Assembly: GCF_004343725.1 (NCBI RefSeq)
Contig: NZ_PTQW01000031.1
Location: 1-64,000, forward strand
DNA from: Treponema sp. J25
Lineage (GTDB): Bacteria; Spirochaetota; Spirochaetia; Treponematales; Breznakiellaceae
Length of the DNA: 64,000 bases
Direction of reading: 5' to 3'
The notes beneath the pieces were generated by a model. The model had not been told where the DNA came from, searched no databases, and saw only the letters and a list, made by a program, of their open reading frames with translations. A program made the position numbers and the translations under genes. Below are positions 28,616 through 63,953 of the stretch, piece after piece. Position 1 is the stretch's first letter. The number at the start of each line of letters is the position of its first letter.

Positions 28616-29683
28616 TTAGTCTGTCCATGAGCCATCCCAGGGAACCAGTTCAAGGTTGCCCCATGCGGCAAGATGATCGGCCATGATACAGAGGGCTCCC
28701 TGGGGAAGACAATCAAAAGGTGTTTCTAAGAGAAGAGAGGATGTCCCTCCAGGTGTGCAGAACGAAGGGGGCCCACCATGGATGTCTCCTTTTTTCTGGG
28801 TTTGCGGTGCCGCTGAAGAGGGCCTTTCAAAATGAGATAAAGGTTCCTTATCATCCCTCTGGTTTTTCTGGGGTTGGTTTTTCTGAGGGGCCATTGAGGC
28901 AAGGTACGAAAGGGCTTCTTCCATATCTTCTTGCCGTTTAAGGAGGTTCCCCAGGGCGGTGGCCCAGGCATCAGCCGCGGCCGCATCGGGGGCCAGTACC
29001 ATGGCCGCATCGGCTTTGCCAAAGCTCAGGGAAGGCCCTACGGTTCCGGAAGAGCAGGCAAGCCCCCAGGGTCTTCCCGAAGGCTGTAGTCGCACTGCTA
29101 TTTTCCCCGAAAGCGAAGAAAGCCCCGCGTACACTCCCACAAGCAGCGGCTCCTGAATCCAGAGCCAATAATCTCCGCCGTTTTCTATAACCAATTCATC
29201 AAAGGCAAATTCTTTTGTAAGGTCTTCTCCCAGGATGGCCGCAATAGCTCCGGCTACCGCCGCCATGGGGCCTACACCGGCCGCCTGACCGGCCTGGAGC
29301 ATCCGTTGCACAATGGGGGGCGCCTCTGGATCAAAATGAAGGGGAACCAGGCTGGAAAGAAAATTGGGGTGTGTATCACTGTATTCCTGGATGTGTCTTC
29401 TTAAGGCCTGTACGATATGGGTTGCTCGCTGACGGACACGGTGTTCTTCGAAGGGGTGTGCAAGAAATGTTCCCCCCGTTTCCGCAGCGGCGCCACCCCC
29501 CATCCAGCTTACCGGATCTTTTTCAGCAATTTCTGTGGGATGGGCTGATTCCCCCTCTCCCTGCGCGGAAGGGAAGACTCCTCCCTTCCAGCCAATCCAG
29601 AGATCCGTTTCTTCTATTTGGAGGGTGAGGGAAGAAAAGCGGCTCCCTTCCATGGGATGCCGGTAAAATCGTTCTCTGTACAG
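28616..29683 (-). CDS. UPF0280/COG2122 protein linked to homocysteine synthesis
   Basis: Third member of the anaerobe homocysteine set (homologue of Methanosarcina MA1715, from memory). VGPMAAVAGAIAAILGE, VIENGGDYWLW and SGRPWGLACSSGTVGPSL are the conserved blocks, related to ApbE-type flavin-transfer folds. The best start is a CTG at 29683 with AGGAGG exactly 6 nt upstream: it restores YRERFYRHP, the usual family N-terminus, ahead of the first ATG at 29653, which has no ribosome site. The C-terminal ~60 residues after the core are low-complexity. It is last in the operon, 114 nt after the ferredoxin gene. Confidence 0.78.
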   Translation of the reverse strand: MYRERFYRHPMEGSRFSSLTLQIEETDLWIGWKGGVFPSAQGEGESAHPTEIAEKDPVSWMGGGAAAETGGTFLAHPFEEHRVRQRATHIVQALRRHIQEYSDTHPNFLSSLVPLHFDPEAPPIVQRMLQAGQAAGVGPMAAVAGAIAAILGEDLTKEFAFDELVIENGGDYWLWIQEPLLVGVYAGLSSLSGKIAVRLQPSGRPWGLACSSGTVGPSLSFGKADAAMVLAPDAAAADAWATALGNLLKRQEDMEEALSYLASMAPQKNQPQKNQRDDKEPLSHFERPSSAAPQTQKKGDIHGGPPSFCTPGGTSSLLLETPFDCLPQGALCIMADHLAAWGNLELVPWDGSWTD

Positions 29684-29797
29684 GGGATACCTCCTGGCGT
29701 ATGTGGGGGATACCGCACAAAGGCTGTCTCTGGGACGGCGCCTCAGCTACCATGATACTCCGGAACCTATCGGAAAGGCCGCCCCCTTTTTCATGGT

Positions 29798-30217
29798 TTA
29801 TGAAACTTCCCCAAAATCAAGGGTAAAGCACCCCATAGGGCAGGCCTTGACGCAGTTTCCGCAGGCCACACAAAGGTCCCGGTTTACCTGGAGCTTCCAG
29901 TCTTTTCTGTCCAGGAGGATGGCCCCTGAAAAACATACCCCCGAACAGCTGCCACAGTCGATGCATCGATCCTCGTCCCAGAAAAGGCGCTTTGAAACAC
30001 TAACCCAGCTTACCCCTATCGATTCGAGCCAGGAAAGGGCCCGGGAGAGCTTTTCTTCTTCTTCAACCCCAAATTCGACAAGGAGATTTCCCTCTTGTCC
30101 AGGAGAAATTTCAGCCCGAAGAATGTTTACCCGGATATCAAAATCTTTCACCAGGCGCCACAAGATAGGTTCGCTTACGGTTTCTGCGGAATATCCAAGT
30201 ACATATTTACTGGTCAT
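29798..30217 (-). CDS. NIL-domain ferredoxin (2 x 4Fe-4S) of the homocysteine pathway
   Basis: 139 residues. The N-terminal ~75 form a NIL domain, found in methionine-related proteins (YVLGYSAETVSEPILWRL); two 4Fe-4S motifs follow, CIDCGSCSGVC and CVACGNCVKACP. The homologue MA1822 acts with COG1900 in converting aspartate semialdehyde and sulfide to homocysteine (established for Methanosarcina, recalled). The ATG at 30217 overlaps the stop of the COG1900 gene as ATGA, so co-translation is likely. An open frame extends upstream to 30475 but lies inside the COG1900 gene. Confidence 0.88.
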   Translation of the reverse strand: MTSKYVLGYSAETVSEPILWRLVKDFDIRVNILRAEISPGQEGNLLVEFGVEEEEKLSRALSWLESIGVSWVSVSKRLFWDEDRCIDCGSCSGVCFSGAILLDRKDWKLQVNRDLCVACGNCVKACPMGCFTLDFGEVS

Positions 30218-31386
30218 CGGGATGTCCTCCGGTTTCTGATAATAGGTAATCCCTGCACGGTACTTCGCTGGGGAAGAGGACGTGCTGGAGGTATGAGGGG
30301 GAAGGCCCCCGAAAGGACCATGCGTTTTAAGGTCTCTGCCAGTTCTCGGGCTCGGCGATAACTGGAAAGAGGTGCGGTCCTCACCTTTTTCCCCCGGAAT
30401 TCGACGGTCCCTGACATGAGTTCTGCATAGCTTATGTTCCCCAGAGGCGGGTGCCCATCGAGGGCATAATCGCAAATAGTAGTCTGGATTTCTTCGTTGC
30501 GGACCATGACGCGATAGGCCAGATCTTCATCCAGAACGGGGATAGCAAAGCCCACTCCCACGTAGAGGGTAACCCCATATTTTTCATAATAGGCTGCCCG
30601 GATCCATTGGCTCGACATTTCTTTAGCATTCCCTACGAGCATGAGGGTTCGGGCGTTCGAAAGGGGAATGCCCCGTTCGTTGGTCGGTTTCTCGGTATTA
30701 AATTGGGTCCCATTCCAGGCTACGGATCCTACGGCGCCACCTAAAAAAACGGGGCTCCCAATCCCTATGGTACGGAGTTCAGGATCATTTAAAAGTGGAG
30801 AAAGACAACCCGAGGTGGAATAATTAATATTCAAGAAAGAAGGAAGTAGGGTGCCCATATAAGTATACAGGGTTCGATGACTGGAATTCGTTGCGGCCGG
30901 ATAGTTTTGATAAGCATTGCGGGGATTGGTAAGGATCATCTCGTTGACCCGATCCCGATGGATGTAGGTTTCAATGTCTTTTCGGGGATAACAGTCGGTT
31001 CCCTTGGCGTGGGCTTTGAGGAAGAGTTCTTCCCCTTCAATAAGCTTTTGGATGATGTGGGCCCCCCCAAAGCGGGGATTCTCTGGATGCACTTCTGTGG
31101 CGCCGATGTAGGCATCTACCGCCGCAATGCCGCCGAAGACCGGTACGCCCTCGATAGTAATATGCTCCATCCGAATCGGTGGTTCCGGATGGCCAAAATT
31201 GATAAACATCCCCGAGGAACACATGGCTCCAAAGGTTCCGGTGGTAACCACATCTACTTTTTGTACAAAATTAGCGGGTTTTTCTTCACTGGCCATCTGG
31301 GCTGCCTCTTCAGCGGTAATGACCACGGCCTTTCCTTCTTTTAGTTTTTGGTTAATCTCATCCCAGCTCTTGGTTGTCCTGCTCAT
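30214..31386 (-). CDS. Homocysteine biosynthesis protein, COG1900/DUF39 family
   Basis: 390 residues matching the DUF39 enzyme (homologue of MA1821) that incorporates sulfur into aspartate semialdehyde to form homocysteine without O-acyl-homoserine. TTGTFGAMCSSGMFINFGH holds Cys56 and AKGTDCYPRKD holds Cys132; both match the two conserved cysteines described for the family. GSPVFLGGAVG is another family block. The ATG at 31386 follows GAGGAG. It is the first gene of a three-gene operon with its own promoter ~20 nt upstream. Confidence 0.9.
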   Translation of the reverse strand: MSRTTKSWDEINQKLKEGKAVVITAEEAAQMASEEKPANFVQKVDVVTTGTFGAMCSSGMFINFGHPEPPIRMEHITIEGVPVFGGIAAVDAYIGATEVHPENPRFGGAHIIQKLIEGEELFLKAHAKGTDCYPRKDIETYIHRDRVNEMILTNPRNAYQNYPAATNSSHRTLYTYMGTLLPSFLNINYSTSGCLSPLLNDPELRTIGIGSPVFLGGAVGSVAWNGTQFNTEKPTNERGIPLSNARTLMLVGNAKEMSSQWIRAAYYEKYGVTLYVGVGFAIPVLDEDLAYRVMVRNEEIQTTICDYALDGHPPLGNISYAELMSGTVEFRGKKVRTAPLSSYRRARELAETLKRMVLSGAFPLIPPARPLPQRSTVQGLPIIRNRRTSR

Positions 31387-31613
31387 GGAAAACGCTCCTC
31401 TGGGGAGTATAGACCCTTCTTATTTTTTATTCAATAAATGTAGCCTCTTCGTATCGATGTTCCAAACAATGGAAAAACCTGGTTACGTGATACGCGGGTG
31501 AGCGCTCAGATTAGGAAATAGAAACAAAGGCCCCCGAATATTCCCCCTTTCTTTAAAAGTGGGGTATCCAGGGACCCGTGGTTGTTTCCTGCAGGCAGAG
31601 CCTACCGGGCGAT
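31387..31613. other. Intergenic region between sulfur-fusion gene and homocysteine operon
   Basis: 227 nt. It holds the promoter described separately near its left end. The rest contains short GC-rich stretches (31500-31600) where the upstream operon must terminate, but I could not draw a hairpin with a clear T tract. I looked for SAM, B12 and T-box signatures and saw none. Confidence 0.5.
31406..31434 (-). promoter_or_regulatory. Promoter of the homocysteine operon
   Basis: TTGAAT (31429-31434) and TATACT (31406-31411) with a 17-bp spacer on the minus strand give a leader of only ~15-20 nt. That leaves no room for a methionine-type riboswitch. A 13-bp AT palindrome, TTTATT-C-AATAAA (31426-31438), covers the -35 box and may bind a regulator. 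Confidence 0.75.
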
Positions 31614-34196
31614 TTAGATAAAGAGATTTACCCCCGCGTTACTGGCCGCTTCGTAGTAGGTGGCAACCCCGCCAATTTCGATGCCGTCAAGGAGTTCTTC
31701 TTTCTGAACCCCCATGATATCCATGGACATCTGGCATGCCACTAGGCGCACCCCCGCGGCCCGGGCCTGGGCAATCATTGCTTCCAGTGGATCCACCTGT
31801 TTTGCCTTCATGCGGGCTTTCATCATCCAGGGGCCCATACCCCCAAAATTCATCTTAGAAAGGGAAAGGGTCCCCGCATGTTTGGGCAGCATCCAGCTAA
31901 ACATCCGGCCCATGAGGTCCTTGCGAACCCGGGGTTTTTGTTGCTTCATGATGACCGAGAGCCCCCAGAAGGTGAAGAACATGGTTACCGGTTTGCCCAC
32001 CGCCGCAGCCCCATTGGCCAGAACAAAGGATGCCAGGGCCCGATCAAAATCGTTAGAAAAGACGATGATGGTGGCTCCCTGGGCGGTTTGAACCATCGTG
32101 GGGCTCGAAGAAGAAGGGACTGTTCCTTGGGGTCGATCGCCCCCCAGGAAGGGACGAGATGCGGATGCAAGGGGGGCCCCCTGTTGCTTTTCGATAAGGG
32201 CTTCGATTTTTCCTCCTTTGTTTTCAAGAGAAACAAGGAGGTTCCCCGTTAAATTGGTCCAGGACTGCACATCCCGGGCAAAACCAGGGTCAGTCGCGGT
32301 AATCAGGATACGGCTTCCCCGTTCGATTTTATCAATCTCTGTTTTAAGGCGCATGATGGGGCCCGGACACTGGAGACCACAGGCGTCCACCGTAATAATC
32401 TTGACATTTTTTTGTTCTACGATTCCTTCGGGAAGGCCCGTCCCTTCATGGTAGGTGATTTTTTGATCCCCCACCTGAGCGGTTTTCCCTTTCCACAGAG
32501 CCAGGGCCCCCGGGTTGTCCTGTTTTTCCATGGCGGCCTTCCAGGTTTTGTATCCCCCCGTCAGGTTGTAAAGGTCGGTCCATCCATGCTGACGGAGGAT
32601 CCGTTCGGCCAGGTAACCCCGCAGTCCTACACCGCAGTAGACGAGGACCGTTCTGTCTTTAGGAACCTCCGAAAGACGGGTGCGAAGTTCCGTGTTGGGG
32701 ATACACACCGCCCCCGGTATATGGCCGAGGTCGAATTCTTCTTTCGTACGTACGTCAAGGATAAAGGCTCCCTTTGCTCGCTGTTCTTCAAACTGTCGCC
32801 AGGAAAGGACCCGAGAGCGGCCGGCCAGGATGTTTTCGGCCACAAAACCGGCCATGTTGATGGGATCCTTGGCGGAGGAATAGGGTGGGGCATAGACGTG
32901 TTCGAATTCGCAGAGGTCAAAAACGGTGCCGCCCTTCTGAATAAAGGCCGCAATCGCATCAATCCGTTTATCTACTCCCTCATAGCCGACCGCCTGGGCG
33001 CCGTAGATGGCACCGTTCTCTGGATGAAAGAGAACTTTCAAGGTGAGGGGAAGGGCATTAGGATAGTATCCCGCATGGTGATTTGGATGTACAATAACCT
33101 GACTATAGGGCTTTCCAACCCTCTGAAGGACCTTTTCGTTGATTCCGGTGGTAGCGACGGTAAGATCAAAGATCTTCGCCCCAGCGGTTCCAATGGCCCC
33201 TTTCCAGGGCCGCACCTTCTTGTTCCCAAATACAATCGCATCGGCTACCAAACGCCCCTGTTTGTTTGCGGGACCCGCAAGGGGTATCACCCCGAGTTCC
33301 CCACTCAGGGGATGTTTGAAGGCAATTGCGTCCCCAATGGCCCGAATGGCCTGGTCACTGGTGGTAAAGTATTCATCCACTATGATGGCCCCTGCACCGG
33401 GTTTTCCCGGAGGGACAGTTTCGAGCCCCGCCTCCTGGGCGATCTTTGTATCGGGCCGTACGCCTACCGAAAAGATCACCATATCGGTCAGAATTTCATC
33501 CCCCGAAGCCAGAAGGACTGCGATACGGCTCCCCCGACGTTCAAAGGCCTTGACGCCATCTTTCAGTCGTAACTCGAGCCCCTTGTCTTTAAGATGTTGA
33601 TGAACGATGGCGGCCATTTCAAAGTCCAGCGGTGCCATTACCTGATCCAGGGCCTCCACAATGGCAACCCCGAGTCCCCGGTGGGCAAGATTTTCTGCCA
33701 TTTCAAGGCCGATAAAGCCTCCACCCACAACCACCGCAAGCTGGGGATGTTGGAGATCGAGCCACGCTTTGATACGATCCACGTCGGGAACAGAACGGAG
33801 GGTAAAAATCCCTTCGAGGTCAAGTCCCGGAATAGGAGGCCGTACCGGTTCGGCTCCCGGAGAAAGGATAAGGGTGTCGTAGGACTCTTCGTAGGTCCTG
33901 CCGGTTTTTTTATCCACCAGCGTTACGGTTTTTTTCTGCCGATTAATAACTGTCGCTTCCGTAGCAACCCGGACATCCACATTCAAGGTGGCCCGGAATT
34001 TTTCGGGGGTCATAACGAAGAGTTTGTCCCGTTCTGCAATAACCCCGCCACTGTAGTAGGGAAGTCCGCAGTTAGCGTAGGAGATATACTCTCCTCGTTC
34101 AACCAGGATTATCTCTGCCTGCTCATCGTTCCGTCTTAAGCGGGCCGCCGCAGTGGCACCTCCCGCGACACCACCGATAACAAGGTACTTTGCCAT
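31614..34196 (-). CDS. CoA-disulfide reductase-rhodanese-TusA-DsrE2 fusion protein
   Basis: 860 residues in four domains. Residues 1-450 are a pyridine-nucleotide-disulfide oxidoreductase of the CoA-disulfide reductase type (GGVAGGATAAARLRR; redox Cys43 in SYANCGLPYYSGG). About 458-560 is a rhodanese with loop VLVYCGVGLRG. About 600-675 is TusA with CGLQCPGP. From ~710 comes a DsrE2/DsrF-like domain with ACQMSMDIMGV. Each domain has its sulfur-carrying Cys, so it can reduce disulfides and pass persulfide sulfur along. It starts 3 nt after the MarR-like gene, with AAGGAG inside that gene's end. It probably feeds sulfur to, or manages polysulfide for, the neighbouring homocysteine operon. Confidence 0.9.
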   Translation of the reverse strand: MAKYLVIGGVAGGATAAARLRRNDEQAEIILVERGEYISYANCGLPYYSGGVIAERDKLFVMTPEKFRATLNVDVRVATEATVINRQKKTVTLVDKKTGRTYEESYDTLILSPGAEPVRPPIPGLDLEGIFTLRSVPDVDRIKAWLDLQHPQLAVVVGGGFIGLEMAENLAHRGLGVAIVEALDQVMAPLDFEMAAIVHQHLKDKGLELRLKDGVKAFERRGSRIAVLLASGDEILTDMVIFSVGVRPDTKIAQEAGLETVPPGKPGAGAIIVDEYFTTSDQAIRAIGDAIAFKHPLSGELGVIPLAGPANKQGRLVADAIVFGNKKVRPWKGAIGTAGAKIFDLTVATTGINEKVLQRVGKPYSQVIVHPNHHAGYYPNALPLTLKVLFHPENGAIYGAQAVGYEGVDKRIDAIAAFIQKGGTVFDLCEFEHVYAPPYSSAKDPINMAGFVAENILAGRSRVLSWRQFEEQRAKGAFILDVRTKEEFDLGHIPGAVCIPNTELRTRLSEVPKDRTVLVYCGVGLRGYLAERILRQHGWTDLYNLTGGYKTWKAAMEKQDNPGALALWKGKTAQVGDQKITYHEGTGLPEGIVEQKNVKIITVDACGLQCPGPIMRLKTEIDKIERGSRILITATDPGFARDVQSWTNLTGNLLVSLENKGGKIEALIEKQQGAPLASASRPFLGGDRPQGTVPSSSSPTMVQTAQGATIIVFSNDFDRALASFVLANGAAAVGKPVTMFFTFWGLSVIMKQQKPRVRKDLMGRMFSWMLPKHAGTLSLSKMNFGGMGPWMMKARMKAKQVDPLEAMIAQARAAGVRLVACQMSMDIMGVQKEELLDGIEIGGVATYYEAASNAGVNLFI

Positions 34197-34199
34197 AAC

Positions 34200-34562
34200 C
34201 TACTCCTTGAGGGCGATAAATATTTCAAGCAATTGAGGGGGAATAGTTATCCCCCGTTCTTGCAAAGCCGCCAACAATTCTTTGCCTTTTTCCGTCGGCT
34301 GGTTCGACCAGTGCCGTTTATCCTGGGTTCCCCGGCTTCGTTCTATCAAACCTTTCTGTTCAAGACTACTCAGGAGACGGGAAATCCGGGATGGTGAGAG
34401 ACCTATCTGGTCCTGCAGGGGGGCACTCCCCGTGCAGCCCCCGCCAATACAACAGAGGAGAAGGGCCTCCGAAAGGGTGATATGATATTCTTCCTTAAGA
34501 TCTTCTTCTAAGCGGGTGACATACCGGAGGATTTCTTTCAGAGCACAGAGTTTTTCTTTCAT
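34200..34562 (-). CDS. MarR-like regulator with cysteine-rich segment
   Basis: 120 residues forming one winged-helix domain: the recognition helix region LSPSRISRLLSSLEQKGLIER is followed by a wing with Arg/Gly/Lys. Cys37, Cys38 and Cys43 (LLLCCIGGGCTGS) lie just before the DNA-binding helices, with a further Cys6. The gene is co-transcribed with the persulfide-handling fusion protein, so a thiol or persulfide switch is a reasonable inference. A near-perfect palindrome sits at its own transcription start. Confidence 0.8.
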   Translation of the reverse strand: MKEKLCALKEILRYVTRLEEDLKEEYHITLSEALLLCCIGGGCTGSAPLQDQIGLSPSRISRLLSSLEQKGLIERSRGTQDKRHWSNQPTEKGKELLAALQERGITIPPQLLEIFIALKE

Positions 34563-34619: not shown

Positions 34620-34625
34620 TAGCAA

Positions 34626-34653
34626 ATATTATATAAAAATATCGATATGTCAA
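34626..34653 (-). promoter_or_regulatory. Promoter of the MarR-sulfur fusion operon
   Basis: Perfect -35 TTGACA (34648-34653). The -10 is TAATAT (34626-34631, 16-bp spacer) or the overlapping TATAAT (34628-34633, 14 bp). AT-rich surroundings. Confidence 0.65.

Positions 34654-63879: not shown

Positions 63880-63953
<74 letters not shown>

Follow-up and report, generated by a model that had tools for sequence, protein, structure and literature searches.

Five genes and the signals between them

The DNA analysed here (the window) is a stretch of 64,000 nucleotides from Treponema sp. J25 (NCBI RefSeq assembly GCF_004343725.1, contig NZ_PTQW01000031.1, positions 1 to 64,000 of the forward strand; GTDB lineage Bacteria; Spirochaetota; Spirochaetia; Treponematales; Breznakiellaceae), the 3.18 Mb genome of which is 99.9% complete and was searched for genes family by family. 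Positions 28616–34562 hold five open reading frames, all on the minus strand, and the genes and family names given in a preliminary description were confirmed with Pfam and NCBIfam, joined by PDB 2o34 for the UPF0280 protein. Read in the direction of transcription, a MarR-family regulator (34200–34562; 120 aa, with Cys6, 37, 38 and 43; PF01047) is followed by a CoA-disulfide (persulfide) reductase-rhodanese-TusA-DsrE2 protein (31614–34196; 860 aa; Pfam domains, TIGR03385), hereafter the fusion. Three genes lie beyond it: HcyBio (30214–31386; 390 aa; COG1900/DUF39, PF01837), annotated as the catalytic subunit of L-aspartate-semialdehyde sulfurtransferase (L-ASST); a NIL-domain ferredoxin with two 4Fe-4S motifs (29798–30217; 139 aa; PF09383, PF00037); and a UPF0280/COG2122 protein (28616–29683; 355 aa when read from a CTG; PRK04334-type models, PDB 2o34).

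Ahead of the MarR gene, a promoter-like TTGACA/TAATAT pair is present on the minus strand (34625–34653, 10/12 consensus matches), with an imperfect inverted repeat, CTAACAATCATTGATAG, just downstream; at the matching place, genome G194 carries a perfect 23-bp palindrome. A shared MarR operator was considered and rejected, the sites in the window and at loci L160, L162 and L163 being too unlike for one motif. The fusion and HcyBio genes are 227 bp apart. Between them lie a terminator-like hairpin followed by TTTGTTTCTATTT (31528–31577, minus strand; the 114-nt piece containing it folds at -47.1 kcal/mol, z -3.3), which is absent from the output of a consensus terminator scan, and a promoter-like TTGAAT-17-TATACT positioned 20 bases upstream of the HcyBio ATG (31406–31434, minus strand), a 9/12 match of a kind for which chance matches are common (9 found, 5.3 expected). 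The row of HcyBio, NIL-ferredoxin and UPF0280 genes stands as first described; on account of the gap, the hairpin and the promoter-like site, it is not clear that the fusion shares their operon, and the MarR-fusion pair and the three-gene module are probably transcribed separately.

A tRNA at 63880–63953 is the sole RNA element found in the whole window, and the homocysteine module thus has no SAM riboswitch. At locus L060 (14140–14277), an FMN riboswitch precedes genes, named by eye, for a BMP-family-like lipoprotein and an ABC transporter, likely a riboflavin transporter.

The homocysteine module and a second route

HcyBio matches PF01837 over the entire profile (1–349 of 349; 464 bits against a curated cut-off of 26.2, E 2.8e-139), the match covering residues 20–364 of 390; no other Pfam family, and hence no CBS domain, is matched. 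Sequence searches returned no solved structure for the protein, and a profile search gave only chance-like nanobody matches. The COG1900 relative MMP16 makes coenzyme M. Membership of HcyBio in this group (CoM synthase, COG1900d) was rejected at 119.7 bits to TIGR03287 against a cut-off of 363.95, as was the MMP16 layout: no Fer4 match falls inside the HcyBio protein, and the NIL-ferredoxin is separate. The NIL-ferredoxin gene overlaps HcyBio by ATGA, read directly at 30217–30214 as had been noted, and its product matches NIL at 50 bits and two Fer4 domains at 54 bits, with all eight cysteines of the 4Fe-4S motifs present.

No Pfam family matches the UPF0280 protein; PRK04334-type NCBIfam models reach up to 212 bits, under their strict equivalog cut-offs, and PDB 2o34 is matched with E 9.9e-28. 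Its translation most likely starts at CTG 29683, which has AGGAGG 6 nt upstream, rather than at ATG 29653, which would give 345 aa, because the YxxRFYR motif common to relatives falls between the two codons and the relatives have CTG (G194, G319, G314) or GTG (G328) at this place. A low-complexity insert near the C-terminus (window 28680–28880) is absent in relatives.

Both the NIL-ferredoxin and the UPF0280 genes are adjacent to HcyBio. Most loci in a survey of 296 genomes of the phylum have all three genes, ordered HcyBio-NIL-UPF0280 or HcyBio-UPF0280-NIL, and the window order recurs in most of 80 further loci from other groups; it is kept in most Bacteroidota, Bacillota and Spirochaetota loci and in Methanomassiliicoccales archaea. 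The family matches, this conserved order and the cysteines, as well as the aspartate kinase linkage in relatives described below, support the proposed identity of the three genes as the known L-aspartate-semialdehyde sulfurtransferase module of Methanosarcina and Desulfovibrio. In Desulfovibrio, homocysteine formation requires all three genes, and homoserine is no intermediate (PMC5764234).

The two HcyBio cysteines named at the outset are both present, Cys56 within MCSSG and Cys132 within GTDCYP. In a set of 49 proteins, made up of the window HcyBio and the profile matches from the phylum, Cys56 is kept in 49/49 and Cys132 in 44/49. For 128 proteins (the survey plus the 80 added loci) the counts are 128/128 and 122/128; Cys56 counts in the added loci are biased because MCSSG was part of a search pattern, and the 49-protein survey is used instead. 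Published models already give the cysteine positions. Methanosarcinales homologues have two cysteines at about 54 and 130, and Cys56 and Cys132 align with the cysteines of Methanosarcinales/ANME-2 homologues, an alignment that MA1821 itself stands outside. The pair matches Cys54 and Cys131 of L-ASST, of which the C54A variant is inactive and the C131A variant partly, though weakly, active (PMC12068725). A conserved cysteine of Methanosarcina acetivorans MA1821 bears a persulfide in vivo (PMC5764234); in the same organism, a sulfur-trafficking function has been ascribed to COG2122 (MA1715), and methionine binding to the NIL domain (PMC12068725).

In all six other HcyBio carriers of the family (6/6; G194, G362, G391, G319, G328 and G314), the gene directly preceding HcyBio, at a distance of no more than about 15 bp, encodes an aspartate kinase, and in relatives it stands between the fusion and HcyBio. 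One Mesoaciditogaceae locus and one Acidobacteria locus have a similar placement. The corresponding gap in the window (31386–31613) contains no aspartate kinase gene, and the closest kinases of the host genome lie on other contigs and are 33–36% identical; the gene has most likely been lost at this locus. The linkage supports aspartate semialdehyde as the substrate, and does so more than the window's own evidence. Over the aspartate kinase start codon, a near-perfect hairpin, GGCCCATAGTTCAGGTATACCATGAACTATGGGCC, is seen at L046:7955–7990 and at the same place in L180 and L184, that is, in three genomes of one genus (z -5.5 in G194, -6.3 in G362), while GGTATACC alone is kept at this start in G319; the hairpin is a possible candidate for translational control.

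The host genome also encodes an apparently complete O-acetylhomoserine route, comprising the bifunctional aspartate kinase-homoserine dehydrogenase ThrA (Homoserine_dh, 165 bits), MetA (MetA_acetyl, 490.7 bits, over the cut-off of 460.5) and MetY (OAH_OAS_sulfhy, 608.8 bits, over the cut-off of 495.1), with metA adjoining metY on contig C10. The absence of metA, metX and metY, raised in the preliminary description, is thus not borne out: only MetX is without a match in the host genome. That description had set against its own reading a full acylhomoserine pathway joined to a COG1900 protein lacking its two cysteines; the pathway is there, and so are the cysteines. With ThrA, MetA and MetY present, the idea of the module as the sole homocysteine route was rejected. 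MetA or MetX also occurs in 35/47 HcyBio genomes of the phylum. Alongside the O-acetylhomoserine route, the module may contribute only a minor share, or may instead serve a different aldehyde substrate.

The fusion protein and its linkage to HcyBio

The fusion matches Pyr_redox_2, Rhodanese, TusA and DrsE_2 in that order (Pfam), with redox cysteines in each domain (Cys43, Cys521, Cys606/610 and Cys821, respectively). It scores 464 bits against NCBIfam TIGR03385, under the model's cut-off, and matches PDB 3icr (E 2.5e-175) and the CoA-persulfide reductase 8a56 (E 4.3e-144). The MarR gene directly upstream (39.7 bits to PF01047) is paired with the fusion in G194, G391, G362, G150, G064 and G224 as well, the last three without an adjoining HcyBio. 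In other spirochaetes, a CsoR-type (G074) or ArsR-type (G275) regulator takes the place of MarR before the fusion gene in single cases (L147, L159), and the presence of MarR, CsoR-type or ArsR-type regulators before fusion genes fits a role in thiol or persulfide stress. In Bacteroides fragilis, the MarR protein BmoR represses the same four-domain protein, BF638R_0572: the fusion gene is up 50-fold without BmoR, and losing the four-domain protein increases diamide sensitivity (PMC6158253). CoAPR of Enterococcus faecalis, which is related to the first two fusion domains, reduces CoA persulfide (PMC9405070).

The preliminary description proposed that the fusion supplies or recycles persulfide sulfur to the COG1900 enzyme. 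In the phylum survey, HcyBio occurs in 47/296 genomes and fused DsrE2 in 33/296; both are found in 6, which is the chance level, with no association (Fisher p=0.62), and the fusion adjoins HcyBio in the window and G194 only. Within the sequence covered per locus, the fusion stands beside HcyBio in 0/80 of the further loci. A family sample of 100 genomes has HcyBio in 7/100; 5/7 of these carriers encode fused DsrE2, always adjoining the module, compared to 0/93 of the others (p=3e-7 by count, the carriers being related). Same-strand adjacency of the fusion and HcyBio is seen in 5/6 family members with a readable upstream region, from 3 genera. In two carriers that keep the module, G328 (a single contig) and G314 (97% complete), no DsrE2 domain is found anywhere in the genome, which means that the module does not need the fusion. 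The neighbourhood is conserved within one family (3/5 genera) and not outside it (0/80 loci; phylum survey).

One founding event explains the family pattern, yet leaves room for a functional tie. The family's HcyBio proteins cluster with those of two Spirochaetaceae MAGs, inside a clan whose members come from Bacteroidota, Fidelibacterota and some of the Spirochaetota and which is separate from the majority of the phylum's HcyBio proteins; this placement would be compatible with horizontal transfer as well as with an old duplication.

Two sulfur-related units and their known counterparts

We consider it likely that the locus comprises two neighbouring sulfur-related units that work separately. 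By analogy with other organisms, the first, made up of HcyBio, NIL-ferredoxin and UPF0280, would be a direct homocysteine route: UPF0280 would handle sulfide, a persulfide would form on HcyBio Cys56 and its sulfur would pass to aspartate semialdehyde, with the two-cluster ferredoxin giving electrons to the reaction and its NIL domain probably sensing methionine. The second, again judged from counterparts elsewhere, would be a MarR-repressed CoA-disulfide/CoA-persulfide reductase protecting the thiol pool, in which the cysteines of the rhodanese, TusA and DsrE2 domains may hand sulfane sulfur to one another and the FAD domain may use NAD(P)H to reduce CoA persulfide or CoA disulfide.

That the rhodanese, TusA and DsrE2 domains instead pass or recycle persulfide sulfur to UPF0280 or to HcyBio Cys56 is a reading we consider unlikely. 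The same-strand adjacency in three genera of the family, the restriction of the family's fused DsrE2 to genomes where it stands beside HcyBio, the presence of every carrier cysteine in the fusion and the in vivo persulfide on a conserved cysteine of M. acetivorans MA1821 (PMC5764234) would accommodate it, but the missing linkage in 80 loci elsewhere and the lack of phylum-wide association rule it out as a general rule and, with G328 and G314 keeping the module without a DsrE2 domain, leave the proposed feeding of COG1900 unsupported. Moreover, UPF0280 has already been proposed as the sulfur-trafficking partner, and the units are separated by a terminator-like hairpin here and by the aspartate kinase gene in relatives. 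A narrower form, in which the fusion donates sulfur, taken from CoA persulfide or polysulfide, to the UPF0280/HcyBio module when free sulfide is scarce, likewise seems improbable; if true, the direct homocysteine route would have a sulfur-relay input peculiar to this spirochaete lineage.

We regard as very unlikely that the module mainly serves another aldehyde, converted to another thiol, while MetA and MetY make homocysteine. The complete O-acetylhomoserine route, the frequency of MetA or MetX among HcyBio genomes of the phylum and the match to the MMP16 model, though its 120 bits fall short of the cut-off of 364, would agree with this; the COG1900a cysteines and the separate NIL-ferredoxin depart from the MMP16 layout, the linkage to aspartate kinase suggests a substrate derived from aspartate, and M. 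acetivorans likewise has two methionine routes. The locus places a direct homocysteine route in a Spirochaetota lineage that also has the O-acetylhomoserine route, and the aspartate kinase gene that neighbours HcyBio in relatives independently supports, at the genomic level, aspartate semialdehyde as its substrate. It further illustrates how gene proximity in one genome may hint at a coupling that does not hold once more genomes are sampled; the genera in which this module has the fusion as its neighbour and those in which it does not offer a natural comparison for the fusion's role, if any, in homocysteine formation.

The module shares its three protein families and the two cysteines with MA1821/MA1822 and MA1715 of M. 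acetivorans and with DvMF_1464/DvMF_0262/DvMF_0044 of Desulfovibrio vulgaris Miyazaki F; here all three genes are contiguous, as in many surveyed genomes. It differs from the known L-ASST modules in that its 390-aa HcyBio has no CBS domain, its UPF0280 carries the low-complexity insert and a probable CTG start, and the aspartate kinase gene that the family usually has ahead of HcyBio is absent there in the window genome. The direct and the second methionine route occur together in one genome, as in M. acetivorans, which carries two methionine routes (PMC12068725). The fusion has the four domains of B. fragilis BF638R_0572 in the same order and an adjacent MarR gene, probably forming an autoregulated unit; the MarR gene lies upstream here and downstream in B. 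fragilis, and MarR binding and repression come from the B. fragilis experiments. With CoAPR of E. faecalis (PDB 8a56), which is under CstR control, and CoADR-RHD of Bacillus anthracis (PDB 3icr/3ics), the fusion shares the reductase and rhodanese domains and two catalytic cysteines; unlike the fusion, both are without TusA and DsrE2 domains.
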